From: Nitratireductor sp. ZSWI3
GTDB lineage: Bacteria > Pseudomonadota > Alphaproteobacteria > Rhizobiales > Rhizobiaceae
DNA: 64,000 nt
NCBI RefSeq assembly: GCF_024655565.1
Contig: NZ_JANKOF010000008.1
Coordinates: forward strand, 1 to 64,000
Direction of reading: 5' to 3'
A program made the translations under genes and the position numbers. Each line of letters begins with the position of its first letter. The first letter of the stretch is position 1. Positions 31,932 through 52,609 of the stretch are shown here, piece after piece. The notes under the pieces were generated by a model. It was not told the DNA's origin. It saw only the letters and a program-made list of their open reading frames with translations, and searched no databases.

Positions 31932-31978
31932 TTGCCAAGGGGGTGGATTGGTGATTTAGTTTGTACACAAGTGATTTT
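31932..31978 (+). promoter_or_regulatory. Promoter and operator-like motif upstream of the ABC binding-protein gene
   Basis: TTGCCA (31932-31937) and TTTAGT (31955-31960) are spaced by 17 bases. The motif TTTGTACACAAGTGATTTT (31960-31978) follows the -10 box directly. Almost the same motif occupies the same relative place at 38241-38259, upstream of the molybdenum hydroxylase operon. Confidence 0.6.
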
Positions 31979-32047
31979 TCCAATGCTGGAAAAAGCTCCA
32001 GACGTTGGAAACGCTCGGTCAAACGATCACAACAATGGGGAACCGGC

Positions 32048-33352
32048 ATGAGTGAAAATCGCAAATCTCTGATCAGTTCAACGAGCGGCCTGAGCCGCCG
32101 AACGGCGCTGAAAGGTCTTGGCGCGGCCGCCAGCCTCGTCGCCGCGCCGGGTTTCGTGCGCTATGGCCAGGCGCAATCTTCGGCACCCATCCGGATCGGC
32201 TTCCAGTGTCACCGAACAGGCATCGGCGCTGCCTATGGCCGCTGGTACGAGCGCGTGACGACGGCTGCCGTAAAGCGCATCAACGATGCGGGCGGCATCA
32301 ACGGACGGCCGCTCGAGATCGTCATCGAGGACGACGGCACCGACCCGAAGCGCGGCGCCGAAGTGGTCGAGAAGTTCGCCAACCAGCACAAGGTGGACCT
32401 CGTCTACGGCACGCTGTTCAGCCATGTGGTGGTCGGGTCCGCACCGGCCGCCGGCGAGCTGAAGATTCCCTATTACGTCGTCAGCGAGGGCTATCACGTC
32501 GCTTCCGGCAAATTAAACCGCTACTGCGTGCAGCCCGGCATCACCGACGTGAAGGCGCAGGTGCGCTCGGTGGCGCCGTGGATCGCCAGCAACCTTGGCA
32601 AGAAGGTCACGCTGGTCTATCCGGACTATGCCTTCGGCCACGACCACCGCGATTTCTTCGAGCCGGCCATCAAGGCGCAGGGCGGCGAGGTGGTCGCGAA
32701 GGTGCCGATCCCGCCGACGGAATCCTCCTTCACCCGCTATTTCCCGCAGATCCCCTCCGATACCGACGTGATCTACCACGTGATGGTCGGGCCGGCGGTG
32801 CTCACCTTCGTCAAGGAGATGGGCGAGTTTTTCGGCTCCGGCGGGCCACAGCTTTTCGGCTTCATCGATTCGCTGGAGGCGGTCGACATCGCGAGCCCGG
32901 GACTCGGGTTCCTCGAGGGCAGCCATTTCTGGGAAGGCATGCCGCGCTACGCACAGCCCGATCAACCCGATTACGTCACCGCCTATCGCGAGGCCGTCGG
33001 CATCGATGACAATGGCGCCAGCGCAAAGGACGCGAAGGACATCTCGACGGCGGCCCACATGTTCGGCTGCTGGGAAACCCTCAACGTCATCAAGGCCGCC
33101 ATGGAAGCCTGCGACTACAAGGGCGTGGACGACCGCGCCGCGATGATCGAGGCGACCGAGGCGATGACCGACATGGAGGCCGGCCCCGACCACCCGCAGG
33201 GCAAGAAGCTGTTCAACGGCAAGATCCACCAGGTCTTCGGCGAGCAGAACATCAGCCAGGTGGCCGAAGGCAAGCTCAAGGTGGTGCACCGCACCTCCAT
33301 CGAGGACGGCGCCTACGAGCCGGAGGCCGACTACACCACGATGTCGTTCTGA
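32048..33352 (+). CDS. Branched-chain/amide-type ABC transporter substrate-binding protein, Tat-exported
   Basis: This 434-residue periplasmic binding protein of the Peripla_BP_6 class opens with a twin-arginine signal (SRRTALKGLG plus a hydrophobic stretch, then AQSSAPIRIG). NAAGG-like NDAGGINGRPLEIVIEDDGTDP is split over the first lobe. GGGGAA lies before the ATG at 32048. It heads the five-gene importer (binding protein, two permeases, two ATPases) that precedes a nicotinamidase and an N-heterocycle degradation operon. I infer the ligand is that heterocycle or a related amide, not an amino acid. Confidence 0.85.
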   Translation: MSENRKSLISSTSGLSRRTALKGLGAAASLVAAPGFVRYGQAQSSAPIRIGFQCHRTGIGAAYGRWYERVTTAAVKRINDAGGINGRPLEIVIEDDGTDPKRGAEVVEKFANQHKVDLVYGTLFSHVVVGSAPAAGELKIPYYVVSEGYHVASGKLNRYCVQPGITDVKAQVRSVAPWIASNLGKKVTLVYPDYAFGHDHRDFFEPAIKAQGGEVVAKVPIPPTESSFTRYFPQIPSDTDVIYHVMVGPAVLTFVKEMGEFFGSGGPQLFGFIDSLEAVDIASPGLGFLEGSHFWEGMPRYAQPDQPDYVTAYREAVGIDDNGASAKDAKDISTAAHMFGCWETLNVIKAAMEACDYKGVDDRAAMIEATEAMTDMEAGPDHPQGKKLFNGKIHQVFGEQNISQVAEGKLKVVHRTSIEDGAYEPEADYTTMSF

Positions 33353-33368
33353 GGCCGTCGGGTTTGCC

Positions 33369-33479
33369 GCCCCTCACCTTTATCCTCTCCCCGCAAGTGG
33401 GGAGAGGGGCCATCAACGTCGCGGCCATCCTCGTCCTCCCCGTTGAGAGAGAAAATGCCGGGCGGATGAGGGGCGGACG
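33369..33479. repeat. Intergenic palindromic element with strong hairpin
   Basis: CCTCTCCCC / GGGGAGAGG (33384-33392, 33399-33407) forms a strong hairpin. Outer sequences GCCCCTCACC and GGATGAGGGGC are inverted matches, so the whole region folds as one long palindrome. It lies between the binding-protein gene and livH and may act as an mRNA-stabilising or attenuating structure. Confidence 0.6.
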
Positions 33480-33543
33480 CCGGCAGATGATCAGGACAAT
33501 CCACCGCATCTCCTCCGCCTCGTTCATGAAAGTACATTCCTGA

Positions 33544-34425
33544 ATGGCCTTCGGACCCTATTTCCTCCTCGCCACGCTCGAAGGGCTGGTGACGGCGGCC
33601 GTCCTGTCGCTGATGGCGCTCGGCCTGTCGCTCGTCTTCGGCGTCATGCGGGTCGTCAATGTCGCCCATGGCGAGTTCTACATGCTGGGCGCGGTGCTGG
33701 CCTGGTGGTTTTCCTCGCTCGTCGGCGGGCATCCGGCCGTCGGCTTTCTCCTGGCGCTGGTGCTCAGCCCGCTGGTGGTGGCGGCGATCGCCTTCGTCGC
33801 CGAGCGGCTGGTGCTGAGCCGGCTCAATTACGAGCCGGAGGCGACCATCGTCGCCACCATCGGCCTGCTCTACATCATCCAGCAGCTCGCGCTCACCTTC
33901 TACGGCCCCGAGGCGCGGCCGGTCGAGGCGCCCTTCAACCACCGCATCAGCCTGCCCTGGTTCGGCTACTCCGCCTACAAGCTGTCCGTCATCGGCTTCT
34001 CCATCCTGATGATGCTCGCCACGTGGGTTCTCCTGACGCGCACGAAGATCGGCCTTGTCATGCGCGCCACCCAGTTCGACCGCGAGACGGCGCAGGCCTT
34101 CGGCATTCCCGTCGGCCGCGTCTATGCCGGCGTGTTCGCGCTGGGAGCGGGGCTGGCGGCGGTCGCCGCCGTGCTCATCGTGCCGATCCAGCAGGCGCAC
34201 TACCTGATGGGTCTCGACCCGCTTCTGCTGTCCTTCATCGTCGTCATCATCGGCGGCCTCGGCTCGCTGCGCGGCACCGTCGTCGCAGCGGTGCTGATCG
34301 GGCTATCCGATGGCATCATCTCGATGTTCTTCTCGCCGACGCTCGCCAAGATGCTGGCGACGCTGATCGTCGCCATGGTGCTGGTGTTCCGCCCGCAGGG
34401 CCTGTTCGGAGCGCCGGCGCGATGA
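33544..34425 (+). CDS. livH: Branched-chain-type ABC transporter permease, LivH family
   Basis: This is a 293-residue permease with about eight hydrophobic segments. VMRVVNVAHGEFYMLGA is the conserved LivH N-terminal segment, and IVVIIGGLGSLRGTVVAAVLIG is the late coupling region. It forms half of the transmembrane channel with LivM. It overlaps livM by ATGA. The ribosome binding site before 33544 is weak; a 191-base gap with a palindromic element separates it from the binding-protein gene. The symbol denotes family only, not leucine transport. Confidence 0.92.
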   Translation: MAFGPYFLLATLEGLVTAAVLSLMALGLSLVFGVMRVVNVAHGEFYMLGAVLAWWFSSLVGGHPAVGFLLALVLSPLVVAAIAFVAERLVLSRLNYEPEATIVATIGLLYIIQQLALTFYGPEARPVEAPFNHRISLPWFGYSAYKLSVIGFSILMMLATWVLLTRTKIGLVMRATQFDRETAQAFGIPVGRVYAGVFALGAGLAAVAAVLIVPIQQAHYLMGLDPLLLSFIVVIIGGLGSLRGTVVAAVLIGLSDGIISMFFSPTLAKMLATLIVAMVLVFRPQGLFGAPAR

Positions 34426-35387
34426 CGAGGCTGTCTCCTTCCGCAAAGAGCATCGCGCTGCATGTCGGCGTCGTCCTCCTGCTCCTGGCGCTCAACGTCC
34501 TGCTGCCGGAGTATCATCGCGGCGTCCTCGCCCGCGTGCTGGTGCTCGCCGTCTTCGCCATGGGCTACAACCTGGCCTTCGGCTATACGGGGCTGCTCAG
34601 CCTCGGCCACGCCATGTTCTTCGCCGCCGGCCTCTATGGCGCGGGCCTCACCGTCTATCACCTGGAATGGAGCGTCTGGCCGGCCTTCGCGACGGGGCTC
34701 GTCGCCGGCACGGCGCTGGCGCTCGTCGTCGGCTTCCTGGCGCTCAGGACCACCGGCGTCGCCTTCATGATCGTCACGCTGATGTTCGCGCAGGTCTTCT
34801 ATCTGACGACGCTCTATTTCACGACCTACACGCGCGGCGAGGAAGGGCTGGTGCTGCCGCAGGCCGCGCGCGTGCTCGCCTTTCCGGGCGGCGTGCTCAA
34901 CCTGTCCGATCCGTCGACCCGCTACCTCGTCGCGCTGGCGCTGTTCGCGCTGGTGCTGGCGGTGACCCTGTTCCTGGCGCGGGCGCCCTTCGGCCGTTCC
35001 CTCGTCGCCATCCGCGAGAACGAGGAGCGCATGCGCATGCTGGGCTACGACGTGTTTGCCAACAAGCTGGCCTCGGTGGTCCTGTCGGGGCTCGTCTGCG
35101 CCGCGGCCGGCGCTGCCTATGCGGTGCTCTTCGGCTATGTCGGATCGGGCTTCGCGGCGATTCAGTATTCGATCCTGCCGCTCCTGTGGGTGCTGGTCGG
35201 CGGCGCGGCAACCACGCTCGGACCTCTCATCGGCACGCTGTTCATGTTCTATGTCATCGACACCGCGTCGAGCTATACCACGGCGCACCTCCTGGTGGTC
35301 GGCCTGGTGCTGATCGGCGTCATCCTGTTCTTCCCGAAAGGCATCGCCGGCACGGTGCGCGAAAGGTGGTTGCCATGGCTGCCGTGA
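34422..35387 (+). CDS. livM: Branched-chain-type ABC transporter permease, LivM family
   Basis: This 321-residue membrane protein has nine or so helices. GYTGLLSLGHAMFFAAGLYGA and REnEeRmrmLGYd (here IRENEERMRMLGYDV) are LivM hallmarks; the latter is the ATPase-coupling loop. It closes with FFPKGIAGTVRERW. It starts inside the livH stop (ATGA) and overlaps livG by 13 bases, so the importer genes are tightly co-translated. Confidence 0.92.
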   Translation: MTRLSPSAKSIALHVGVVLLLLALNVLLPEYHRGVLARVLVLAVFAMGYNLAFGYTGLLSLGHAMFFAAGLYGAGLTVYHLEWSVWPAFATGLVAGTALALVVGFLALRTTGVAFMIVTLMFAQVFYLTTLYFTTYTRGEEGLVLPQAARVLAFPGGVLNLSDPSTRYLVALALFALVLAVTLFLARAPFGRSLVAIRENEERMRMLGYDVFANKLASVVLSGLVCAAAGAAYAVLFGYVGSGFAAIQYSILPLLWVLVGGAATTLGPLIGTLFMFYVIDTASSYTTAHLLVVGLVLIGVILFFPKGIAGTVRERWLPWLP

Positions 35388-36115
35388 GCCCGCTCCTCGT
35401 TACCCGCGACCTCTGCCGCGCCTTCGGCGGCCTGCGCGCCGTCGACGGCGTCGATTTTTCCCTGCCGGAGGGGGAGACGCATGCCATCATCGGGCCCAAC
35501 GGGGCCGGCAAGACCACCTTCGTCAGCCTCATTTGCGGCCGCATCACCCCCACCTCCGGCAGCGTCGTCTTCGACGGGCGCGAGGTGTCGCGGATGCCGG
35601 CCCACAGGCGGGTGCGCGCCGGCATCGCCTACACGTTCCAGATCACAAGCGTCTTCGCCAATCTGACGGCCTTCGACAATGTCGCACTGGCCGTCCAGCG
35701 GCAGCTGATCGACGCGCGGGCGGGCGGCCGCACCGCCCATGCTCTCGCCGAGCATGGCATGGAGGCGCTCGACAAGGTCGGCCTCGCCGGCCATGCCGAC
35801 AAGATCGCCGGCAACCTCTCCTATGGCCACCAGCGCCTTCTGGAAGTGGCGATGGGCCTTGCCCTCAAGCCGCGCCTGCTGATCCTCGACGAGCCGACAC
35901 AGGGGCTCTCCGACGGCGAGATCGACAATTTCATCGGGCTTGTCCGGCAGATCGGCGAGGAGGCGACGGTGCTGCTGATCGAGCACAACATGGATGTGGT
36001 CATGGCGCTCGCCGAGCGCATCACGGTGATGGAGCAGGGCCGCATCCTGGCGCAGGGGGCGCCGGCCGAGATCCGCGCCAACGAGGCCGTCCAGCAAGCC
36101 TATCTCGGAGGGTGA
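35375..36115 (+). CDS. livG: Branched-chain-type ABC transporter ATPase, LivG family
   Basis: This is a 246-residue ABC ATPase. Walker A is GPNGAGKTT, the signature is LSYGHQ, Walker B is LLILDEPTQGL, and the switch His is in IEHNMD. The LSYG form is normal for LivG. AAAGGTGG lies before the ATG at 35375, within the end of livM. It couples ATP hydrolysis to the LivH/LivM channel on the cytoplasmic side. Confidence 0.93.
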   Translation: MAAVSPLLVTRDLCRAFGGLRAVDGVDFSLPEGETHAIIGPNGAGKTTFVSLICGRITPTSGSVVFDGREVSRMPAHRRVRAGIAYTFQITSVFANLTAFDNVALAVQRQLIDARAGGRTAHALAEHGMEALDKVGLAGHADKIAGNLSYGHQRLLEVAMGLALKPRLLILDEPTQGLSDGEIDNFIGLVRQIGEEATVLLIEHNMDVVMALAERITVMEQGRILAQGAPAEIRANEAVQQAYLGG

Positions 36116-36116
36116 G

Positions 36117-36839
36117 ATGACAGCCGCATCGGGAATGGCCGCATTGAGAATGGAAGGCGTCGACAGCTTCTACGGGCATGTGCAGGTGCTGCGCGGCTTC
36201 GATCTGGAGCTGAAGTCAGGCGAGGTGCTGTGCCTGCTCGGCCGCAACGGTGCCGGCAAGACGACGGCGCTGAAAACCATCATGGGCCTGGTGCCGGCGA
36301 CGGCCGGCCGCATCCTGCTCGGCGATGCGGACCTGACGAAGCTGCCGCCGCACGAGGTGCCGAAGGCCGGCGTCGCCTACGTGCCGCAGGGCCGCCGGCT
36401 GTTCTCGGAGCTGACGGTCGCCGAGAACATAGAGGTCGGCCTGATGACGCGCGGCAAGGGGGCGGCGACCCGCGAGGCCGTGCTCGATCTCTTCCCGGTC
36501 CTGCGCGAGCGGCTGAAGCAGCGCTCGGGCACGCTGTCGGGCGGCGAGCAGCAGATGCTCGCCATGGCCCGCGCGCTGTGTCTGGAGCCGCAGGTTCTGC
36601 TGCTCGACGAGCCGACCGAGGGGCTGATGCCATCGATGATCGCCCGCATCCGCGAGACGGTGGCCGGTTTGCGCGAGCGCGGCGTCTCGACCATCCTGGT
36701 CGAACAGCGCGTCGATGCGGTGCTGCCGGTGGCCGACCGCGTCGCCTTCATCGAGAACGGCCGCAACCGCGAAACCGTCCCCGTCGAGCGCCTGCGCGCC
36801 GACCCGGACATGGTGCACCGCTATGTGGGCGTGGGGTGA
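36117..36839 (+). CDS. livF: Branched-chain-type ABC transporter ATPase, LivF family
   Basis: This is a 240-residue ABC ATPase. Walker A is GRNGAGKTT, AYVPQGRRLFSELTVAENI is characteristic of LivF, the signature is LSGGEQQM, and Walker B is LLLDEPTEGLMP. It starts one base after the livG stop. It is the last gene of the importer and is followed by a pair of inverted 31-bp palindromic repeats that could help end the transcript. Confidence 0.93.
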   Translation: MTAASGMAALRMEGVDSFYGHVQVLRGFDLELKSGEVLCLLGRNGAGKTTALKTIMGLVPATAGRILLGDADLTKLPPHEVPKAGVAYVPQGRRLFSELTVAENIEVGLMTRGKGAATREAVLDLFPVLRERLKQRSGTLSGGEQQMLAMARALCLEPQVLLLDEPTEGLMPSMIARIRETVAGLRERGVSTILVEQRVDAVLPVADRVAFIENGRNRETVPVERLRADPDMVHRYVGVG

Positions 36840-36876
36840 GCAGGTTCGGCCTGTCGCTGGAGATTGGCGCCGGGCG

Positions 36877-36988
36877 CCCTCGTGGTTCGACAAGCTCACC
36901 ATGAGGGCTGTTGAGAAGCCTGCGCCGAATAGCAGTCAAGCGCTCTCTAAGCAGTAGCCCTCATGGTGAGCTTGTCGAACCACGAGGG
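36877..36988. repeat. Inverted pair of identical 31-bp palindromic repeats (REP/REPIN-like), pair 1
   Basis: The copies at 36877-36907 and 36958-36988 are exact reverse complements of each other (CCCTCGTGGTTCGACAAG..., ending CATGAGGG) with a 50-base spacer. Each copy is itself an imperfect palindrome. The second copy encodes the C-terminus and stop codon of the GIY-YIG gene. Flanks outside the 31 bp are also similar (GCNYGGCRCCA). Confidence 0.9.
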
Positions 36989-37290
36989 CGCTTGGCATCG
37001 GCCTTTTCTTGCCTGTTGCGTGCCAATCCGGGCAGTGCCTCGTAATCGAGTGCGATCAGAGCCTCCTTCTTCGCACGCGACCAGCCCTTGATCTGCCTTT
37101 CGCGGGCGATCGCATCGAGAATGCGGTCATAGGTTTCCGTGAACACAAGTTCGACCGGCCGGCGGCGCTTGGTGAAGCCGTCACAGATGCCTTCATTGTG
37201 TTCCCAGAGGCGGCTCTCCACGGTCTGTTTCGTCAGGCCGGTGTAATAGGAGCCGTCCGAGCAGCGCAGGATGTAGACGGTGACCTCCAT
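36961..37290 (-). CDS. Small GIY-YIG nuclease-domain protein flanked by REP-like repeats
   Basis: This 109-residue single-domain GIY-YIG protein has VYILRCSDGSYYTG at residues 4-17 (the GIY and YIG elements), an Arg after KQTVES, FTKRRRPVELVFTE and ERQIKGWSRAKKEALI with the catalytic Glu. This is the YhbQ-like branch. The ATG at 37290 follows TTGGAG. The last residues RGSTSSP and the stop are encoded by a 31-bp palindromic repeat. Two identical inverted repeat pairs bracket the gene, as REPINs bracket RAYT transposase genes. A role in repeat processing or mobility is an inference; a DNA-repair role is the conservative alternative. Confidence 0.85.
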   Translation of the reverse strand: MEVTVYILRCSDGSYYTGLTKQTVESRLWEHNEGICDGFTKRRRPVELVFTETYDRILDAIARERQIKGWSRAKKEALIALDYEALPGLARNRQEKADAKRPRGSTSSP

Positions 37291-37367
37291 GCTCTTCTCC
37301 AATACTGGTAGAAACCATGCAGAATAGAACACGCTTCGGTTGTTTTGAAGTCTTGTGGTGCCAAGCA

Positions 37368-37521
37368 CCCTCGTGGTTCGACAAGCTCACCATGAGGGTT
37401 ACTGAGAGGCCCTCGCCACGATACCGGCCTCAGCGCGGAGCAGTTCGAATTGCTGATGTTTCCCGGCATGCATCGTCGACGATTCAATAACCCTCATGGT
37501 GAGCTTGTCGAACCACGAGGG
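37368..37521. repeat. Inverted pair of identical 31-bp palindromic repeats (REP/REPIN-like), pair 2
   Basis: The copies at 37368-37398 and 37491-37521 are exact reverse complements, identical to pair 1, with a 92-base spacer. They lie upstream of the GIY-YIG gene and downstream of the nicotinamidase gene. The 268 bases between those two genes hold nothing else that I recognise. Confidence 0.9.
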
Positions 37522-37558
37522 TGCTCGGCGCCAACTGTCCCAACCTCGCCCCGCCACC

Positions 37559-38158
37559 TCACAGCAGCTCCACCCCGGCGTCCTTCATCCTGGCCGTCAT
37601 CGCGGCCAGTGAGCCGCCGAGGTCGATCGCCCGGCAGCCTTCCAGCACCACGCTTGCCGCAAAGCCCTGACGGCGGGCGTCGAGGGCCGAGTAGGCGACG
37701 CAGAAATCCGTCGCCAGCCCGGCCAGGGTGACCCTCGAAATGCCCCGCTCGCGCAGGTAGCCGGCAAGCCCGGTCGGCGTTTCGCGGTCGTTCTCGAAAA
37801 AGGCCGAATAGCTGTCGATGGTCGACCGGAAGCCCTTGCGGATCACCAGCTCCGCCCGGGTCCAGTCGAGCCCGGGGTGAAAATCCGCTCCCCTGGTCCC
37901 CTGCACGCAATGGTCGGGCCACAGCGTCTGCTCGCCATAGGGCATGTCGACCGTCTCGAACGGCGCCTTGCCGGGATGCGAGGAGGCGAAGCTCGAATGG
38001 CCGGCCGGATGCCAGTCCTGCGTCAGCACCACATGCTCGAAGCGCCGGATCAGGCCGTTCACCACCGGCACCACCTCGTCGCCCTCCGCAACGGCCAGCG
38101 CGCCGCCGGGGCAAAAGTCGTTCTGCACATCGATGACGATCAGCGCTTCGTCCGCCAT
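37559..38158 (-). CDS. pncA: Nicotinamidase (isochorismatase-like hydrolase)
   Basis: This is a 199-residue cysteine hydrolase. The catalytic triad is Asp10 (IDVQNDF), Lys108 (VIRKG) and Cys153 (TDFCVAY). Metal ligands expected of PncA are present: Asp48 and His50 in TQDWH, and His83 in PDHCVQGT. It hydrolyses nicotinamide to nicotinate and ammonia. The start at 38158 gives MADEALIVID. It diverges from the molybdenum hydroxylase operon across a 170-base control region, so it may feed nicotinate into that pathway as well as NAD salvage (inference). Confidence 0.88.
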   Translation of the reverse strand: MADEALIVIDVQNDFCPGGALAVAEGDEVVPVVNGLIRRFEHVVLTQDWHPAGHSSFASSHPGKAPFETVDMPYGEQTLWPDHCVQGTRGADFHPGLDWTRAELVIRKGFRSTIDSYSAFFENDRETPTGLAGYLRERGISRVTLAGLATDFCVAYSALDARRQGFAASVVLEGCRAIDLGGSLAAMTARMKDAGVELL

Positions 38159-38213
38159 GCCTGCTCCTCGCCTTGCTGAAAGCTCGCGGCGAAGGTGGAC
38201 CGAATGTTCCCCT

Positions 38214-38259
38214 TTGACAAGCGGCGCAAGCGGCGTATCATTTGTACACGAATGAATTT
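38214..38259 (+). promoter_or_regulatory. Sigma-70 promoter with downstream operator-like motif for the Mo-hydroxylase operon
   Basis: TTGACA (38214-38219) and TATCAT (38236-38241) are spaced by 16 bases. TTTGTACACGAATGAATTT (38241-38259) follows, matching the motif at 31960-31978 in both sequence and position. It covers the expected start of transcription, so a repressor site is likely. Confidence 0.7.
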
Positions 38260-38328
38260 GGGCCTCGACGAACAAGCACAAGAAGGGCCCAGGGAACGAT
38301 ACGGCTATCAAGGGCAGGCAGGCGCAGC

Positions 38329-39183
38329 ATGGACTATGCCAGACCGACCGAACTGGAGGAGGCGTTAGGGCTCTTATGCTCGAAACGCTGGACGATACTT
38401 GCCGGCGGCACGGATTTTTATCCGGCGCTCGGCGCGGGACCGCTGAAGGACGACGTGCTGGACATCAACGGGCTTTCGATGCTGGAGGGAATCGCCGAGA
38501 CCGACGCGCATATCCTCATTGGTGCGCGAACGAGCTGGAGCACCGTCATCCGCACGCCGCTGCCACCCGCCTTCGACATGCTGAAGGAGGCTGCGCGTGA
38601 GGTCGGCTCCGTGCAGATCCAGAACACCGGCACCGTGGCCGGCAATCTGTGCAACGCTTCGCCTGCCGCCGACGGCGTGCCGCCGCTCCTGGCGCTCGAT
38701 GCCGAGGTCGAGCTCGCTTCGTCCGACGGCCGCCGCCACCTGCCGCTGGCATCCTTCGTTCTCGGCAACCGCAAGACGGCGCGCGAGCCCCATGAGATGG
38801 TCACCGCGATCCGTGTGCCGAAGACCTCTGCCGCGGGCCGCTCGGGCTTCGTCAAGCTCGGTGCCCGGCGCTATCTGGTGATCTCCATCGCCATGGCGGC
38901 AGCGCGTCTGGTGCTCGAGGGCGGGCGGGTCGCCGAGGCCGCCATCGCCGTCGGTTCCTGCTCCGCCGTGGCACAGCGCCTCTCGGCGCTCGAAGACCGG
39001 CTGCGGGGCGGCGATGCGGCTGCGCTCATGCCGCTGATCGATGCCTACGGGTTTCCCGAACTCACCCCCATCGACGACGTGCGCGGCAGCGCTGCCTATC
39101 GGCGCGAGGCGGCGCGCGAGATCGTCAAACGGGCCGTCGCCGGTCTGCTCGGCGAAGCGGAACGGGGAGGGCTTGCGGCATGA
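38329..39183 (+). CDS. Molybdenum hydroxylase, FAD-binding subunit
   Basis: The 284-residue protein has the FAD-binding fold of the xanthine dehydrogenase family. ILAGGTDFYP (residues about 23-32) and the later GSVQIQNTGTVAGNLCNASPAADG are the two flavin-contact segments. The C-terminal CO dehydrogenase flavoprotein-like domain includes FVKLGARRYLVISIAMAA. It passes electrons from the Fe-S/Mo chain to NAD+ or another acceptor. It is the first gene of a six-gene overlapping operon and shares ATGA with the next gene. The ATG at 38329 gives MDYARPTELEEAL. Confidence 0.88.
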   Translation: MDYARPTELEEALGLLCSKRWTILAGGTDFYPALGAGPLKDDVLDINGLSMLEGIAETDAHILIGARTSWSTVIRTPLPPAFDMLKEAAREVGSVQIQNTGTVAGNLCNASPAADGVPPLLALDAEVELASSDGRRHLPLASFVLGNRKTAREPHEMVTAIRVPKTSAAGRSGFVKLGARRYLVISIAMAAARLVLEGGRVAEAAIAVGSCSAVAQRLSALEDRLRGGDAAALMPLIDAYGFPELTPIDDVRGSAAYRREAAREIVKRAVAGLLGEAERGGLAA

Positions 39184-41930
39184 GCGGCGCGCGCCTCAAA
39201 CTGTCCTTCGAGGTCAACGGCAATCCGGTCGAGGCGGAGGTCGCGCCCCTGCAGCGGCTTTCTTCCGTGCTGCGCGACGAGCTGGGCTTCAAGGGCACCA
39301 AGGTCGGGTGCGATGCGGGCGATTGCGGTGCCTGTTCCGTGCTCGTCGACGGTGAGGTGGTCTGCGCCTGCCTGGTGCCGGCGGCAAACCTTTCGGGCCG
39401 CCGGGTGCGCACGGTGGAGGGGCTTTCGAAGGGCAGCCTGTCCGCCCTGCAGGAATCGTTCCTGCGTCACGGCGCGGCCCAGTGCGGCATCTGCACGCCG
39501 GGTCTCCTGATCAGCGCGACGGCCCTTCTTGAACGCAATCCCGCTCCGTCCGAGCAGGAGGTGCGCGATGCGCTGGGCGGCGTGCTCTGCCGCTGCACCG
39601 GCTACCGCAAGATCATCGACGCGGTGATGAACGCCAACCGCTCGGTCGCCGTCGATGCGGCGCTGGTCGGGCAGGGGGCGGCGGTCGGTGCATCGCCGAT
39701 CCGGCTCGACGGGCGTCGCAAGGTGACGGGCAGCGAGGTCTTCGGTGCCGACGAGCGACCGGCCGAGGCCCTTTCTGTGGCCGTGGTCCGCTCGCCGCAC
39801 TGGCACGCGACGTTCGAGATCGGCGATACGCAGACCTTTGTCGCCGCTCATCCCGGCATCGTCGCCGTCTTCACGGCGGCCGATATTCCGGGCGAAAACC
39901 GCTTCGGCGTCATTCCACCCTTCGCCGACCAGCCGGCGCTGGCCGAGGAAAGGGTGCGCTTCCGCGGCGAGGCGGTGGCGCTCGTCGCCGGAGAACGCAC
40001 GGCGATCGAGGCGCTGGACCTTGCCGAATTCCCCATCGCCTGGCACGAGCTGCCCCATGCCCTTACACCGGCGGAGGCGCGGCGGGACGGTTTCCCCGAC
40101 CTGCATGAAGGGCGGGCGAACAATCAGCTCACCCGGGGCTTCGTCGAGTGCGGCGACCCGGAGGCGGCCATCCGGGACGCCCATGTCACAGTCGCGGGCG
40201 ACATCGAGACCTCCTATGTGGAGCACGCCTATATCGAGCCCGAGGCGGGTTTTGCCGCCATGGAGGGCGATACGCTGGTCATCAAGGCATGCACCCAGGC
40301 ACCCTATATGGACCGCGACGACACGGCCAAGGTTCTCGGCCTGCCGCCCGACAAGGTGCGCATCGTTCCGCTGGCGACAGGCGGCGGCTTCGGCTCCAAG
40401 CTCGACGTCTCGCTGCAGCCGCTGGTCGGCCTCGTGGCGCTCAAGACCGGGCGTCCGGCGGCGATCGTCTACACGCGCGGCGACTCCATGCGCTCCACCA
40501 CCAAGCGCCATCCGGCCGCCATGCGGGCGACGATCGGCGCGGACGCAGACGGCCGTGTCACCGGCATGGTGTTCGAGGGCGATTTCAACACCGGCGCTTA
40601 CGCCAGCTGGGGCCCCACGGTGGCGAACCGCGTGCCGGTGCACGCCTCCGGGCCGTATCGCACGCCGCATTACCGCGCCACGGGCCGGGCGATCCACACC
40701 AACGGGCCGGTTTCGGGCGCCTTCCGCGGCTTCGGCGTGCCGCAGGCGACCATCATGCAGGAGGTGCTCTACGACCGGCTGGCCGAAAAGCTCGGCCGCG
40801 ACCGGCTCGCGTTCCGCATCGACAACGCGCTCGTCGACGGCGACCGCACCACGTGCGGCCAGGTGCTCTCCGGTGTCGGCATCCGTCAGTGCCTCGAGGC
40901 CCTCAGGCCCCACTGGGCGCGCGCCGGGGCCGAAGCCGAGGCGTTCAACGCGCGTGACGGCAAGATCCGGCGCGGCATCGGCATCGCCTCCTGCTGGTAT
41001 GGCTGCGGCAACACCGCGCTGCCCAATCCCTCCACCATCCGTGTCGGCATCAGGGCATCGGGCAAGGTGATGCTGCATCAGGGGGCGGTGGATATCGGCC
41101 AGGGCTCCAACACGGTGATCGCGCAGATTTGCGCCGATGCGGCGGGCCTGCCGCTGTCCGTCTTCACCCTCATCGGCGGCGACACGACCCTGACGCCGGA
41201 CGCGGGAAAGACCTCGGCCTCGCGCCAGACCTTCATTTCCGGCAAGGCGGCGCAAAAGGCGGGCAGGAGCTTGCGCGAGAGCATCCTGCGCTTCGCCAAT
41301 GTCTCGGCCACGGCCGACATCAGTGTCGAAAGCGGCGCTCTCATCGTTCGTGAGGGCGAGGTGCGGCGTCGCATCGTCCTTGCCGAGCTCGAGCCCGATG
41401 CGCGCGGCTATGTCTTCTCGGCCGAGGAGACCTATGATCCGCCGACCACGGCGCTGGACGAAAAGGGGCAGGGCACGCCCTATGCCGTCTATGGCTACGG
41501 TGCGCAGCTTGTCGAACTGGAGGTCGACACGACACTCGGCACCGTGCGCCTCCTCCGGATCACCGCCGCGCACGATGTGGGCCGCGCCATCAACCCGCTT
41601 CTGGTCGAAGGGCAGATCGAGGGCGGCATCGCCCAGGGCATCGGCCTGGCGCTGATGGAGGAATATGTGCCGGGGCGGACCGAGAACCTGCACGACTATC
41701 TGATCCCGACGATCGGCGACGTGCCGCCCATCGAGACCATCCTGATCGAGGTGCCGGATGCCGAAGGGCCGTTCGGCGCCAAGGGGCTCGGCGAGCATGT
41801 CCTGATCCCCACGGCGCCGGCGATCCTCAATGCCATACGCCATGCCTCCGGCGCCGAGATCACGCGCGTGCCGGCAACCCCGAGCCGCATTCTCGAGGCA
41901 ATCCGGGCGAGGGAGGAGCGACGGGCATGA
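39180..41930 (+). CDS. Molybdenum hydroxylase, fused 2Fe-2S and molybdopterin subunit
   Basis: This is a 916-residue fusion. Residues about 5-85 hold a plant-type 2Fe-2S ferredoxin domain (Cys44, 49, 52, 64). Residues about 90-155 hold the second cluster with QCGICTPG and CRCTGY. The remainder is the molybdopterin domain with GGGFGSK, FRGFGVPQ and the catalytic Glu in FGAKGLGEH. It hydroxylates a carbon next to a ring nitrogen or oxidises an aldehyde, using water as oxygen source. The downstream 6-hydroxynicotinate-reductase-like gene makes an N-heterocycle such as nicotinate the likely substrate (inference). Confidence 0.88.
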   Translation: MSGARLKLSFEVNGNPVEAEVAPLQRLSSVLRDELGFKGTKVGCDAGDCGACSVLVDGEVVCACLVPAANLSGRRVRTVEGLSKGSLSALQESFLRHGAAQCGICTPGLLISATALLERNPAPSEQEVRDALGGVLCRCTGYRKIIDAVMNANRSVAVDAALVGQGAAVGASPIRLDGRRKVTGSEVFGADERPAEALSVAVVRSPHWHATFEIGDTQTFVAAHPGIVAVFTAADIPGENRFGVIPPFADQPALAEERVRFRGEAVALVAGERTAIEALDLAEFPIAWHELPHALTPAEARRDGFPDLHEGRANNQLTRGFVECGDPEAAIRDAHVTVAGDIETSYVEHAYIEPEAGFAAMEGDTLVIKACTQAPYMDRDDTAKVLGLPPDKVRIVPLATGGGFGSKLDVSLQPLVGLVALKTGRPAAIVYTRGDSMRSTTKRHPAAMRATIGADADGRVTGMVFEGDFNTGAYASWGPTVANRVPVHASGPYRTPHYRATGRAIHTNGPVSGAFRGFGVPQATIMQEVLYDRLAEKLGRDRLAFRIDNALVDGDRTTCGQVLSGVGIRQCLEALRPHWARAGAEAEAFNARDGKIRRGIGIASCWYGCGNTALPNPSTIRVGIRASGKVMLHQGAVDIGQGSNTVIAQICADAAGLPLSVFTLIGGDTTLTPDAGKTSASRQTFISGKAAQKAGRSLRESILRFANVSATADISVESGALIVREGEVRRRIVLAELEPDARGYVFSAEETYDPPTTALDEKGQGTPYAVYGYGAQLVELEVDTTLGTVRLLRITAAHDVGRAINPLLVEGQIEGGIAQGIGLALMEEYVPGRTENLHDYLIPTIGDVPPIETILIEVPDAEGPFGAKGLGEHVLIPTAPAILNAIRHASGAEITRVPATPSRILEAIRAREERRA

Positions 41931-43468
41931 ACGAACTGACCGAACGTTTCGAGGTGGCGCCGCCCGAAAAGCCGGCCGGCAAGGGGGAAACGGGCGAAAA
42001 GCTGCGCTGCGACGCCTGCCCGGTGATGTGCTACATCGCCGAGGGCCGCACCGGCGCCTGCGACCGCTACGGCAATTTCGGCGGCAGGATCACGCGCTGC
42101 GACCCGGTGACGGTGCTCGAGCACGCGGCGGATGAGGGCGGGACCCTGGTGCCGTTCGAGGGCGAGGAGCCGTGGGACGGCGAACTCGTCAACACGAAGC
42201 GCCGCTTCGTCAGCGCCGTCGGCGCCGGCACCACCTATCCGGACTACAAGCCCGCCCCCTTCATCGTCTCGCAGGAGGTGGAGGGCGTCGATCTCGTCAC
42301 CGTGGTCACCGAGGGCATCTTCTCCTATTGCGGCGTCAAGGTGAAGATCGACACCGACCGCTTCCTCGGGCCGGAGGCGGCGGCGGTTCGTGCCGGCGGC
42401 GAGGCGATCGGCCATGTCACGACTGCCGAATACGGCAGCCAGATGCTGTCGCTCGGCGGCGTGCACCACCTCACCGGCGGCTCCAAGGCCGAGGGGCGGC
42501 TCACCTGCCAGGCGCTGATGGACCTGTGCAACAAGAAGCCGGTGGAACTCACGATCGACGGCGGCGCGACCGTCATCGTGGAGGCCGGCCGGCCGCCGGT
42601 CATCGACGGCAAGCGCGAGGAGCGCATGCGGGTCGGCTGCGGCTCGGCGACCATCGGCATGTTCGCCACCCAATGGAAGGGGCTGGTGGACGAGGTGGTG
42701 GTGGTCGACGACCACATCACCGGCGTCGTCTCCGAGCATCAGGCCGGCAAGGTCATCGGCTGGGCCGATACCGGCATCAAGATCGTCGGCCGGCGCTCCA
42801 CGCCGGGGCGCTACTTCAAGGTTTCCGAGCCGGGCCTCGGCTGGGGCGGCACGACGATCGACGATCCGCTGCAGATCCTCGGCGAGTTCAACGAGAAGAA
42901 GGGTGCGCGGCCCGGCCTGTCGCTGCTGATGGTCTCCACCACCGGCGAGCAGTTCGCCTATTACGAGCTCGACGCGGCGCTGAAGCCGGTCAAGAAGCCC
43001 TTCCCCGAGCGCCTGCGCAAATCGGTCGAGCTGATCGAGGAGAATTGCGAGCCGGCGCTGTGCACCGTCCTGTTCATGGGCGGGGCAGGCGGCTCCCTGC
43101 GGGCCGGCGTGACGGAGAACCCGGTCAATCTGACGCGCTCGGTGCAAGGCCTCAGGACCTATGTCACCGTCGGTGGCGCTCCGGTCTATGTGTGGCCCGG
43201 CGGCGGCATCACCATCATGGTCGATGTCACGCGGACGCCCGACAACGCCTTCGGCTACGTGCCGACGCCGGCGCTGGTCGCGCCGATCGAATTCACCCTG
43301 CGCCGCGACGACTACATCCGCCTCGGCGGCTATGCCGACGAGATCCGCAGCGTTGCGGACGTGCTGGAAAAGGGCGGAGACTATTTCAACGCGCGTCAGA
43401 TGCGAAAGGCGGCTCCCGCCAATCCTTGGCCGCCGTTGCAGCAATTGCGCCGCGAGCCCGGCCGATGA
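41927..43468 (+). CDS. 6-hydroxynicotinate reductase-like iron-sulfur protein
   Basis: This 513-residue protein has an N-terminal cysteine cluster Cys28-x2-Cys31-x3-Cys35-x9-Cys45 (CDACPVMC...GAC) for an Fe-S centre, plus Cys58. The rest is Gly-rich without a recognisable Rossmann loop. It resembles Hnr of anaerobic nicotinate fermentation, which reduces 6-hydroxynicotinate to 1,4,5,6-tetrahydro-6-oxonicotinate. The sequences DGGAT (211-215) and GSAT (239-242) could be sites of covalent flavin attachment, which is speculation. It overlaps both neighbours by ATGA, so it is co-translated with the hydroxylase and UPF0280. Confidence 0.7.
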   Translation: MNELTERFEVAPPEKPAGKGETGEKLRCDACPVMCYIAEGRTGACDRYGNFGGRITRCDPVTVLEHAADEGGTLVPFEGEEPWDGELVNTKRRFVSAVGAGTTYPDYKPAPFIVSQEVEGVDLVTVVTEGIFSYCGVKVKIDTDRFLGPEAAAVRAGGEAIGHVTTAEYGSQMLSLGGVHHLTGGSKAEGRLTCQALMDLCNKKPVELTIDGGATVIVEAGRPPVIDGKREERMRVGCGSATIGMFATQWKGLVDEVVVVDDHITGVVSEHQAGKVIGWADTGIKIVGRRSTPGRYFKVSEPGLGWGGTTIDDPLQILGEFNEKKGARPGLSLLMVSTTGEQFAYYELDAALKPVKKPFPERLRKSVELIEENCEPALCTVLFMGGAGGSLRAGVTENPVNLTRSVQGLRTYVTVGGAPVYVWPGGGITIMVDVTRTPDNAFGYVPTPALVAPIEFTLRRDDYIRLGGYADEIRSVADVLEKGGDYFNARQMRKAAPANPWPPLQQLRREPGR

Positions 43469-44400
43469 CAGGCCCTGTCGCCTCCTGGCTCCCCGATGGG
43501 CGCCGCCTGCATCTCAATCACGGGCCGATCGACCTGATCGTCGAGGCCTATGGTCCGGACGACGAGCGCCGCGCCGCCTATCGGCAGGCCGTCGCGCGCT
43601 TCCGGACGATCCTCGAGGAGCTGGTGGCGGAGCTTCCCGCCTTGCGCAGTCCCGTCGACACACGGCCGCACGCGTTCCGTGGTTCCACCGCCCGGCGCAT
43701 GGAGCGGGCGGTGCGGCCGCATTTTCCCCTGTTTGTCACGCCCATGGCGGCGGTGGCCGGCAGCGTCGCCGACGAAGTGCTCGCCGCCATGGTCGAGGGG
43801 CGGGCGCTCGACCGGGCCTATGTCAACAATGGCGGCGACATCGCGCTTCACCTGGCTCCCGGCCAGACGATTGCGGCTGCCGTCGCCGGTACGGGCAACG
43901 GTTTTGCCGACCGGCTGACCTTCGGCGCCGCCCATCCCGTGCGCGGCATCGCCACCAGCGGCTGGCGCGGGCGCAGCCACTCGCTCGGCATCGCCGATGC
44001 GGTGACCGTGCTTGCCGCGAGCGCCGCCGCCGCGGATGCCGCCGCGACGCTGATCGCCAACGCCGTCGATCTGCCCGGCCATGCGGCCATCGACCGGGTT
44101 CCGGCGCGCCAGCTCGCGCCCGACAGCGATCTCGGCGACCGCCTCGTCACGCGCGGCGTCGGCGCGCTTTCGGCGGTGGAGGTCGCAGCGGCTCTCGACA
44201 ACGGCCTCTGCGCCGCCGAAGCCATGCGGCAACGCGGCCTCATCGAGGCCGCCGCGCTCTTCCTGCAGGGCGAAAGCCGCCTGTGCGGCGGCGCCGGGTT
44301 CGTCACCGAGAGGGATTGCGGGATGGATGCGAACACCGCCATAACCGGCCGGCCGCGATCACCACAGAGCTTCATCGATAGGATTGGACATCATGCCTGA
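43465..44400 (+). CDS. UPF0280 family protein (ApbE-like)
   Basis: This 311-residue protein has the UPF0280 pattern: FVTPMAAVAGSVADEVLAAM, AYVNNGGDIALHL, GIATSGWRGRSHSLGIADAV. These correspond to the MAAVAGxxAD and NxGGD segments shared with ApbE-type flavin transferases (family recall). Its reaction is not established. It starts in the stop codon of the Hnr-like gene and overlaps the next gene by 8 bases. The position suggests it matures or assists the Hnr-like protein, for example by flavin transfer (inference). Confidence 0.8.
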   Translation: MTGPVASWLPDGRRLHLNHGPIDLIVEAYGPDDERRAAYRQAVARFRTILEELVAELPALRSPVDTRPHAFRGSTARRMERAVRPHFPLFVTPMAAVAGSVADEVLAAMVEGRALDRAYVNNGGDIALHLAPGQTIAAAVAGTGNGFADRLTFGAAHPVRGIATSGWRGRSHSLGIADAVTVLAASAAAADAAATLIANAVDLPGHAAIDRVPARQLAPDSDLGDRLVTRGVGALSAVEVAAALDNGLCAAEAMRQRGLIEAAALFLQGESRLCGGAGFVTERDCGMDANTAITGRPRSPQSFIDRIGHHA

Positions 44401-44977
44401 CTTCGCCTTGCGCAAGATCGCTCTTCTCACCGAGGAAATCCGCCACGAGGGCGGACCGGCGCCGGCCGTGCCGCGCCGCCGGGCGGCCGTCATGGCATTG
44501 GTGAGGAATCCTTTCGCCGGTCGCTATGTCGATGCGCTCGAAAGCGCCATGGACGATCTCAAGCCGCTCGGCCTCGAGATGACCGACCGCCTCATCGCAG
44601 CGCTCGGCGGCGATGCGTCCGTCATAGACGGTTTCGGCAAGGGCGCCATCGTCGGCACGGCGGGCGAGCTGGAGCACGGCGCGCTGTGGCACGTGCCGGG
44701 CGGCTATGCCATGCGCGAGCGGCTCGGCGATTCCAAGGCCATTGTGCCCTCGGCGAAGAAGGTCGGTGCCTTCGGCGCGCGCATCGACGTTCCGCTCGGC
44801 CACATCAACGCGGCCTATGTGCGCAGCCATTTCGACGCCATGGAGGTGGGCCTGTCGGACGGCCCGCGGCCCGACGAGATCCTGTTCGTCCTCGCCATGG
44901 CCTGCGGCCCCAGGGTGCATGCCCGCATGGGCGGCCTCAAGGCCGAAGACGTGAAGGGCGAGGACGGCCTCAGATGA
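44393..44977 (+). CDS. 'Amino acid synthesis' family protein (PF06684-like)
   Basis: The 194-residue protein starts MPDFALRKIALLTEEIRHEGG and contains NPFAGRYVDALESAMDDL, a GKGAIVGTAGELEHGALWH segment, KKVGAFGARIDVPLGH and ILFVLAMACGPRVHAR. This fits the AA_synth family, whose function is unknown despite its name. Conserved His and charged residues suggest an enzyme. In this operon a ring-opening or lactam-handling step after reduction of the heterocycle is missing, and this is one candidate for it (speculative). It overlaps MarR by ATGA. Confidence 0.75.
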   Translation: MPDFALRKIALLTEEIRHEGGPAPAVPRRRAAVMALVRNPFAGRYVDALESAMDDLKPLGLEMTDRLIAALGGDASVIDGFGKGAIVGTAGELEHGALWHVPGGYAMRERLGDSKAIVPSAKKVGAFGARIDVPLGHINAAYVRSHFDAMEVGLSDGPRPDEILFVLAMACGPRVHARMGGLKAEDVKGEDGLR

Positions 44978-45438
44978 GGGCGCCCGGCAAGACTTTTCAG
45001 GTGTTGCCGGGAGGGCGGGCCGCTGATGCCTACGACCTGCAGGAGCAGGTGGGCTTCATCCTGCGCAAGGCCAACCAGCGGCACCTGTCGATCTTCGCCG
45101 CCCGCATCAGCGATCTCACCCCGCCGCAATTCGCCGCGCTGGCCAAGCTGCACGAGGTGGGAGCCACCTCGCAGAACCAGCTCGGCCAGATGGTGGCAAT
45201 GGACGCGGCCACCATCAAGGGCGTCATCGACCGGCTGAAGGCACGCGGGCTGGTCGAGCTCGAGCCGCACGGCAAGGACCGCCGGCGTCTGGTCGTCAGC
45301 CTGAGCGAGAAGGGCCGTGAACTGGTCGAGGCGCTGCTGCCGGAGGCGCTGGAGGTGACCGAAGAAACGCTGGCGCCGCTCACGCCGCGCGAGACGGCGA
45401 CTTTCCTGCGGCTTTTGACGAAGCTTGCCGAGGGTTGA
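44974..45438 (+). CDS. MarR-family transcriptional regulator
   Basis: The 154-residue protein has a winged-helix MarR fold. LTPPQFAALAKLHEVGATSQNQL leads into the recognition helix (AATIKGVIDRLKARGL), and the wing contains PHGKDRRRLVVSLSEKG. It is the last gene of the Mo-hydroxylase operon, so the operon probably regulates itself through this protein; the operator-like motif at 38241-38259 is a candidate site. Its last 59 bases overlap the end of a convergent transporter gene. Confidence 0.87.
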   Translation: MRAPGKTFQVLPGGRAADAYDLQEQVGFILRKANQRHLSIFAARISDLTPPQFAALAKLHEVGATSQNQLGQMVAMDAATIKGVIDRLKARGLVELEPHGKDRRRLVVSLSEKGRELVEALLPEALEVTEETLAPLTPRETATFLRLLTKLAEG

Positions 45439-52390: not shown

Positions 52391-52406
52391 CCGCAAACTT
52401 TGCTTC

Positions 52407-52470
52407 GCTCGGCCTTTTAGCGAGTTGTTTTACGTGGCTGCAAGCCGACCGGCCAAATCACCACGGATCA
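52407..52470 (-). ncRNA. SAM-II riboswitch upstream of metA
   Basis: The minus strand carries the SAM-II consensus in order: CGTGGTGATTTGG, CCGGTCGGC, GCTTGCAGCCACG, a short A-rich loop, then CTCGCTAAAAGGCCGAG. The CGTGG/CCACG stem and the pseudoknot between GATTTGG-side bases and the downstream GCTAAAAGG segment can be drawn. SAM binding would favour termination or block translation of metA, closing the methionine feedback loop. Confidence 0.93.
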
Positions 52471-52609
52471 AGCTGCGTTTTTAGGACGGGGTTCTCTTTG
52501 CGTCAATCGCCGTCTTGGTCTAAAGCAACCGGCGGCCTTGCGAGTTGACTTTGGACTCCCGGCCAGATTTGAAATCCGTTCAGCGTTCTTCCCAACACAG
52601 GACATTTCG

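Follow-up and report, generated by a model that had tools for sequence, protein, structure and literature searches.

A UPF0280 protein paired with an Hnr-like reductase in a probable nicotinate regulon of Nitratireductor sp. ZSWI3

Known nicotinate pathways and the Nitratireductor locus

The anaerobe Eubacterium barkeri, in work of Alhapel from 2006, reportedly ferments nicotinate by means of a nicotinate dehydrogenase with split molybdenum (Mo) subunits, a 6-hydroxynicotinate reductase (Hnr) and an enamidase. A nicotinate cluster of aerobes is described for Azorhizobium caulinodans and the Bradyrhizobiaceae, where it includes a transporter and two conserved proteins of unknown function (PMC3511419). 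According to the same source, the Bradyrhizobiaceae strain grows on 6-hydroxynicotinate and degrades nicotinate, its Hnr homolog is 42% identical to the E. barkeri enzyme, and an aerobic reduction to 1,4,5,6-tetrahydro-6-oxonicotinate (THON) followed by a route to glutarate is cited. This route is described for both organisms in PMC9304392. A locus of the same type lies in a stretch of 64,000 nucleotides from Nitratireductor sp. ZSWI3 (contig NZ_JANKOF010000008.1, positions 1 to 64,000), which is called the window here. It comprises a Liv-type ATP-binding cassette (ABC) importer (32048-36839), a divergent nicotinamidase gene (PncA) and a six-gene operon (38329-45438) coding for the flavin adenine dinucleotide (FAD) subunit and the fused [2Fe-2S]/Mo subunit of a Mo-hydroxylase, an Hnr-like reductase, a UPF0280/COG2122 protein, a PF06684 protein and a MarR-family regulator. 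This layout, proposed in an original prediction made from the sequence, is borne out by profile searches and open reading frames (ORFs): no gene is missing or disrupted, and all five operon junctions overlap, four by the 4 nucleotides ATGA and one by 8 nucleotides.

The locus shares with the Azorhizobium/SG-6C type the first three steps including Hnr, the ABC transporter, two conserved unknown proteins and the aerobic host. It differs in that no enamidase ortholog is detected in the genome and in that genes for a ferredoxin-NADP reductase (FNR), HydA and HydB lie on another contig (C30). The two unknown proteins of the published cluster are presumably UPF0280 and PF06684. A hydroxylate-then-reduce route in an aerobic rhizobial bacterium, as originally predicted, is supported, but it is not new because it has been published for Azorhizobium and Bradyrhizobiaceae (PMC3511419, PMC9304392). 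Added here are the pairing of UPF0280 with Hnr, the division of PF06684 into clades by context, the FNR/HydA/HydB module on C30 and a shared palindrome.

Judged from its sequence, the operon appears to belong, with good support, to the published type of pathway, probably as a variant in its ring opening and with a predicted regulon. The whole locus probably constitutes a regulon of the Azorhizobium type for the aerobic catabolism of nicotinate and, through PncA, of nicotinamide. In the proposed scheme, the importer would take up nicotinate, and PncA would feed nicotinamide into the route. The Mo-hydroxylase would convert nicotinate to 6-hydroxynicotinate, which Hnr would reduce to THON with electrons that probably come from NADPH through the FNR of C30. 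The six-membered lactam THON would then be opened by the ATP-dependent HydA/HydB of C30, a step that falls to the enamidase elsewhere. The PF06684 protein may act during ring opening or immediately afterwards, for example on an enamine or formyl intermediate, and UPF0280 would serve as a dedicated Hnr maturation factor, most likely one that handles a covalent flavin or some other cofactor. Sensing of 6-hydroxynicotinate would fall to the MarR protein, which would control the operon, the importer and the C30 units through TTTGTAyACrAA. The sequences themselves show the gene content, its linkage and co-occurrence, a predicted fold and a palindrome that recurs; the substrates, the individual reactions, the electron donor, the maturation role and the ligand are inferred. 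With the palindrome and the C30 module, the partly known nicotinate pathway of aerobes would gain its likely electron supply and ring-opening step, and it would become easier to see how such organisms reduce a pyridine ring.

Co-occurrence of UPF0280 and Hnr

Neither UPF0280/COG2122 nor PF06684, both widespread families, has been assigned a reaction. Their occurrence was followed in a class sample of 289 genomes and a phylum sample of 249 genomes, with four Hnr genomes common to both, and their gene order in 126 Hnr loci (43 from genomes, 80 named contigs and three from plasmids). The named contigs are the best 80 of at least 588 matches, and Firmicute Hnr loci fall outside that set. In the class sample, Hnr homologs occur in 44 of the 289 genomes. 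UPF0280 is found in 45, comprising all 44 with Hnr and one of the 245 others (Fisher p 2e-51, uncorrected for kinship); the sole Hnr-less match (G143) is marginal with an E of 4e-4, and a few of the 44 matches are fragmented or carry a stop (G064, G087, G194, G210). In the phylum sample, UPF0280 accompanies Hnr in 18/18 genomes and is present in 0/231 others. The check for conserved co-occurrence of Hnr, UPF0280 and PF06684, suggested along with the original prediction, places UPF0280 immediately 3′ of Hnr in 124/126 loci. At the two exceptions, the contig ends within Hnr and UPF0280 lies on another contig of the genome (L073), or UPF0280 lies elsewhere in the genome in a match that holds one TAG (L152). 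The functional tie that this pattern suggests is unusually clean, and its one-to-one nature turns a vague family into a directly testable one.

Among plasmids, 26 records hold an Hnr relative of 60-80% identity, which is annotated as ‘6-hydroxynicotinate reductase’ in 17 and as hypothetical or not at all in nine. UPF0280 occurs in the same 26 records plus one, a plasmid of Hydrogenophaga sp. BPS33. This record has four UPF0280 places; two were read, and each is preceded by a short Hnr-like remnant (a C-terminal match of 42 residues, 36%, E 6e-4); IS1071 lies upstream of the copy at 13938. No relative of Hnr turned up in a scan of viral contigs.

The Hnr-like reductase and a predicted maturation role of UPF0280

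At E 0.001, neither Pfam nor NCBIfam has a model that matches the Hnr-like protein, which is named for its annotated relatives and for the published identity of one relative to the E. barkeri enzyme. Its closest named relatives, within the best 80 matches, belong to Chelativorans, Mesorhizobium and Aminobacter. From the genomes, 41 Hnr, 40 UPF0280 and 36 PF06684 proteins were extracted, and the alignments used 34, 33 and 29 of them, each plus the window's own protein. Eight cysteines (C28, C31, C35, C45, C135, C194, C238 and C374) are invariant in the 35 Hnr sequences, which suggests iron–sulfur (Fe-S) clusters. The E. barkeri enzyme reportedly carries a covalent flavin (Alhapel, 2006), for which we know of no installer. 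In 35/35 Hnr proteins there is a weak match to GCV_T_C (PF08669; best E 4e-5) at residues 136-171, the region where the structure also weakly resembles the glycine-cleavage T-protein. In one locus (L074, G028:C1:2969796-2971255), Hnr is read in two overlapping pieces within an otherwise normal cluster, either by a frameshift or as a split gene. As to a relation of Hnr to DUF39, a sequence-model search gave no PF01837 match in the 35 Hnr members at E 10.

An ApbE-like fold is predicted for UPF0280. Its model (pLDDT 90) is closest to DVU1097 of Desulfovibrio (2o34, Z 19.6); ApbE/Ftp/FmnB flavin transferases occupy ranks 2-20 at Z 13.8-15.9, and the following fold has Z 8.1. Aligned by hhalign with 24 ApbE proteins (probability 92, E 5e-7, 90 columns), UPF0280 pairs its GGD, TSG and AD..AT with GGE, TSG and AD..AT of ApbE. 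S165, D191, A194 and T195 are invariant in 34 UPF0280 proteins and stand opposite ApbE S207, D251, A254 and T255; the spacing of ApbE S207-H223-D251 equals that of the triad Ser241-His257-Asp285 given in a review (PMC12052999). UPF0280 thus shares with the ApbE flavin transferases the fold, the Gly-Gly, TSG and AD..AT motifs and the Ser and Asp of the triad. It differs in the lack of a Pfam ApbE match, as the window's protein matches neither PF02424 nor any other Pfam family even at E 10.

Other observations speak against a flavin transfer to Hnr. Neither the catalytic His257 nor the SHxxDP loop of ApbE is found in the UPF0280 profile alignment, and the canonical flavinylation motif D-x-x-[ST]-G-A-[ST] is present in 0/35 Hnr proteins. 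Hnr itself gave no fold match: the best Foldseek match has an E of 0.01 with meaningless TM-scores, and the best VIA match is the T-protein at Z 3.5, results that do not show a new fold. Canonical ApbE as a general flavinylator of Hnr was considered and dropped, as none is found in 21/44 Hnr genomes (three of these 68-82% complete); the Nitratireductor genome has two.

A rival explanation takes UPF0280 to be a sulfur or persulfide handler for Fe-S assembly in Hnr, as proposed for MA1715 with DUF39, and assigns it no flavin role. Desulfovibrio needs COG2122 together with DUF39 and NIL/ferredoxin to form homocysteine, according to a paper that itself notes both the relation of COG2122 to ApbE and the absent flavin-binding region (PMC5764234), and the archaeal MA1715 is termed a sulfur-trafficking protein (PMC12068725). 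These proteins of sulfur assimilation (COG2122/MA1715/DvMF_0044) are of the same broad family as the window's UPF0280 (NCBIfam PRK04334 models; 2o34), and the eight Hnr cysteines and the missing ApbE flavin-binding signatures fit a sulfur role as well. The partner here, however, is Hnr, and PF01837 (DUF39/HcyBio) has no match in the 249 phylum genomes or in the genome of the window, which implies that UPF0280 serves another partner in these bacteria and counts against the rival. In addition, no cysteine that could carry a persulfide is invariant or 90%-conserved in 34 UPF0280 proteins. The sulfur handler is accordingly regarded as possible but doubtful.

The co-occurrence with Hnr, the ApbE-like fold, the absence of the ApbE histidine and of the Hnr motif, and the DUF39 work elsewhere together favor UPF0280 as a dedicated maturation factor of Hnr, a reading held with moderate confidence. 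That this maturation concerns a flavin, as opposed to Fe-S or sulfur, is only a tentative suggestion. A literature search found no paper using the term ‘UPF0280’; where nicotinate was paired with either ApbE or ‘covalently bound flavin’, no title among the matches listed concerned Hnr, and neither ‘nicotinate’ nor ‘COG2122’ occurs in the ApbE review (PMC12052999).

Ring opening and electron supply

The later enzymes of the pathway lie outside the window, as originally predicted, and contig C30 of this genome carries a strong candidate for the next step. In 16/126 Hnr loci, the cluster contains an amidohydrolase whose representative (L041) matches the E. barkeri enamidase 2vun with an E of 2.7e-114. 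This likeness to E. barkeri ties the Hnr/Mo-hydroxylase family to THON chemistry. With the L041 protein as query, no enamidase ortholog is found in the Nitratireductor genome, where the best match has an E of 1e-7 and 29% identity over residues 15-224. The genome has four HydB genes instead, of which the C30 copy stands beside HydA and a divergent FNR gene. FNR, HydA and HydB of C30 are 78, 74 and 81% identical to their counterparts in a Chelativorans locus (L084), where the module sits right after the MarR gene.

The HydA/HydB family includes the oxoprolinases OplA/OplB, which hydrolyse δ-valerolactam (PMC11033972), and the caprolactamase CapA/CapB (PMC8453981), all of which open lactams in an ATP-dependent manner. 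The C30 pair differs from these in its predicted substrate THON, for whose ring opening it is a strong candidate. Alternatively, UPF0280 and PF06684 could both be catalytic and hydrolyse or deaminate THON in the place of enamidase. Their position directly downstream of Hnr and the lack of more than a partial enamidase match in the genome would fit this idea; it is nevertheless unlikely, as both genes are retained in 16/16 enamidase loci, UPF0280 has an ApbE-like fold and the genome has a HydA/HydB module that bears the palindrome. Near Hnr in four loci (L052, L053, L058 and L066), there are two-subunit 2-oxoacid:ferredoxin oxidoreductase-like genes, whose products might supply low-potential electrons instead.

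Clades and contexts of PF06684

UPF0280 and PF06684 had been predicted alike to be pathway members. Both are conserved, but they do not behave alike: UPF0280 tracks Hnr, whereas PF06684 is looser and found in 39/44 Hnr genomes and 18/245 others of the class sample. PF06684 as an exclusive partner of Hnr is rejected by these 18 genomes and by plasmids, with 387 PF06684 records compared to 26 with Hnr. In a tree of 105/141 sequences (near-identical ones removed), clade A is split from clades B and C with a support of 0.995. Of clade A, 60/65 sequences adjoin UPF0280, compared to 1/40 in clades B and C (L125). Clade C holds 14 sequences (support 1.0), with an α/β hydrolase adjoining 10 and an LLM flavin monooxygenase near nine. 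Among the 18 Hnr-less genomes, 17 were read (G056, under the cut-off, was left out): PF06684 is nearest type C in 10, and in seven of these the stretch also holds an LLM gene (with just 26% identity in one case); it is nearest type B in seven, two of which have it beside an enamidase homolog of 40-42% identity.

The rule that links clade to context is not strict. All 16 enamidase loci have type B, which also occurs in 13 loci with no enamidase in view. In Bradyrhizobium loci (L125, L130, L131, L144, L147, L157), type B follows directly after UPF0280, and no type A was found. Neither type A nor type B is present in nine loci of at least 15 kb with a HydA or HydB match. As the clades are still tied largely to Hnr operons, enamidase and LLM-monooxygenase clusters, PF06684 would appear to act at the ring opening of N-heterocycles. 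Eight loci (L198, L199, L200, L204, L205, L206, L216 and L219) combine PF06684 with an α/β hydrolase, an LLM monooxygenase and an aldehyde dehydrogenase, joined by a flavin reductase in 5/8; this cluster type looks O2-dependent.

The structures closest to the window's PF06684 protein are 3byq (E 2e-55) and 2qtp (E 1e-43), which are described as a hexameric chorismate-mutase-like fold with a conserved histidine cluster (PMC2954203). H95, H100 and H146 are invariant in 30 PF06684 proteins and are taken by alignment offset as His93, His98 and His144 of BB2672; the counterpart of its fourth histidine, His174 (PMC2954203), is not invariant. That paper contains no mention of YjgF. RidA shares the chorismate-mutase-like fold, from which a RidA-like idea of PF06684 derives.

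A wider proposal joins both families and is speculative as a whole. UPF0280/COG2122 would form a second, cytosolic class of ApbE-fold flavin(-derived) transferases without the classical histidine and with a non-canonical target site, flavinylating Hnr in proteobacteria and DUF39-type enzymes in archaea and Desulfovibrio. PF06684 proteins would hydrolyse enamines or imines when N-heterocycles are opened, in concert with enamidase, HydA/HydB or LLM-type cleavage of the ring.

Regulation

The window has a single exact match to TTTGYRYRCNAA, which falls in the gap between PncA and the operon (0.17 expected). Another lies between FNR and HydA (C30:23969-23980), the sole copy within 19.5 kb of sequence surrounding the C30 module (0.04 expected); it was found only after the pattern had been fixed. 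The pattern stands upstream of the FAD gene in 44/59 named or window loci, with 0.17% in base shuffles. Counted over the window, the C30 locus and relatives (own genome included), a slightly wider form is present upstream of FAD in 60/97, PncA in 32/37, FNR in 18/20 and HydA in 15/37 cases (base shuffles at most 0.15%). It is absent upstream of enamidase (0/13), Rieske (0/10) and the other type of binding protein (0/26).

The best match of the MarR protein, 2nnn, is an uncharacterised regulator. BpsR of Bordetella, a MarR protein responsive to 6-hydroxynicotinate, serves a different nicotinate pathway. Over 135 residues, the MarR protein is homologous to 6pcp/6pco, which is taken to be BpsR because the residue numbering agrees. 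Y20, F28, R31 and H37 stand opposite Tyr15, His23, Arg26 and His32, the 6-hydroxynicotinate contacts of BpsR (PMC6837509). Among the best MarR matches of 82 loci, Y and R are kept in all 82 and H37 in 71, and position 28 is F in 63, Y in 12 and H in seven. The residues point to the MarR protein as a putative 6-hydroxynicotinate sensor.

Several points weigh against the proposed regulon and ring opening. The pattern counts are partly circular because the window supplied the pattern and the same relatives served to widen it. The importer site has one mismatch, with the exact pattern before the orthologous binding protein in 2/10 loci (L034, L039) and the window among the other eight, and upstream of MarR the wider form occurs in 14/77 cases, many MarR genes lying inside the operon. 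Phe28 replaces BpsR His23 in the window's regulator, leaving three of four contacts. HydA is near 37/126 and HydB near 28/126 Hnr loci, and therefore near only some; both are large families, and the locus counts may include paralogs. Lastly, the 126 loci include many close relatives.

Substrate and gene content of the locus

Mo-hydroxylases form an enzyme family whose hydroxylation is water-derived. A homolog of the fused Mo subunit is present in 119/126 Hnr loci and lies on the same strand directly upstream of Hnr in 109/126; the window shows this adjacency, as expected for a THON pathway of the Azorhizobium/E. barkeri kind. In NCBIfam, the enzyme comes closest to an aldehyde oxidoreductase and to xanthine dehydrogenases, each of these matches being under the cut-off, and it passes no substrate-specific cut-off. 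An ordinary aldehyde or purine dehydrogenase with unrelated neighbors, to which these matches would point, is highly improbable given the position upstream of Hnr, the overlapping reading frames and the one shared palindrome.

The lack of a match above any substrate-specific cut-off would also allow the operon to degrade another pyridine or lactam-forming N-heterocycle, such as a methylated or substituted pyridine carboxylate, and a Rieske VanA-type oxygenase in 10/126 Hnr loci, along with other transporters, points the same way. Such a substrate is rather improbable in place of nicotinate: PncA shares the divergent gap and the palindrome with the operon, the regulator has residues of the BpsR type, and growth on 6-hydroxynicotinate and use of nicotinate are published for a strain that has a cluster of this kind (PMC3511419). 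Orthologs of the importer binding protein (72% in L034, 70% in L039) lie in loci with an enamidase homolog, although importer orthologs are also seen with no enamidase in view, for example in L068. PncA is present in 36/126 Hnr loci, mostly of close relatives. A literature search on homarine as substrate gave nothing useful.

The features behind the nicotinate reading are collected in Table 1. Export of the importer's binding protein by the twin-arginine translocation (Tat) system had been predicted; its beginning MSENRK..SRRTALKG is Tat-like by eye, but the start assumed at 31932 lies upstream of the likely ATG at 32048.

Table 1. Features of the locus in the window and of the module on contig C30
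Feature	Position	Strand	Basis
Substrate-binding protein of ABC importer, Tat-like signal	32048..33352	+	PF13458 E 6e-53
LivH, LivM, LivG, LivF-type permease/ATPase genes	33544..36839	+	ORFs; LivG by eye; LivH, LivM, LivF orthologs in relatives
Nicotinamidase PncA, divergent from operon	37559..38158	-	NF008623 215 bits, cut-off 174
FAD subunit of Mo-hydroxylase	38329..39183	+	PF00941 E 7e-40, PF03450
Fused [2Fe-2S]/Mo subunit of Mo-hydroxylase	39180..41930	+	Fer2, Fer2_2, Ald_Xan_dh_C, MoCoBD_1/2
Hnr-like 6-hydroxynicotinate reductase	41927..43468	+	homologs, conservation, annotated relatives
UPF0280/COG2122 protein	43465..44400	+	NCBIfam NF003322 391 bits, cut-off 290
PF06684 protein, clade A	44393..44977	+	223.7 bits, cut-off 27
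MarR-family regulator, BpsR-like	44974..45438	+	6pcp E 5e-26
Candidate operator TTTGTACACAAG	31960..31971	+	one mismatch to TTTGYRYRCNAA; 88 bp before likely importer binding-protein ATG
Palindromic operator candidate TTTGTACACGAA	38241..38252	+	PncA/operon gap
FNR	C30:23034-23807	-	match ends
HydA	C30:24104-26140		match ends
HydB	C30:26167-27837		match ends

The gap between LivF and PncA (36864-37534) contains four palindrome-like repeats (CCCTCGTGGTTCGACAAGCTCACCATGAGGG) of about 45-62 nucleotides in both orientations. Outside the operon region, a SAM_alpha riboswitch is found on the minus strand at 52397-52474 (78.8 bits).

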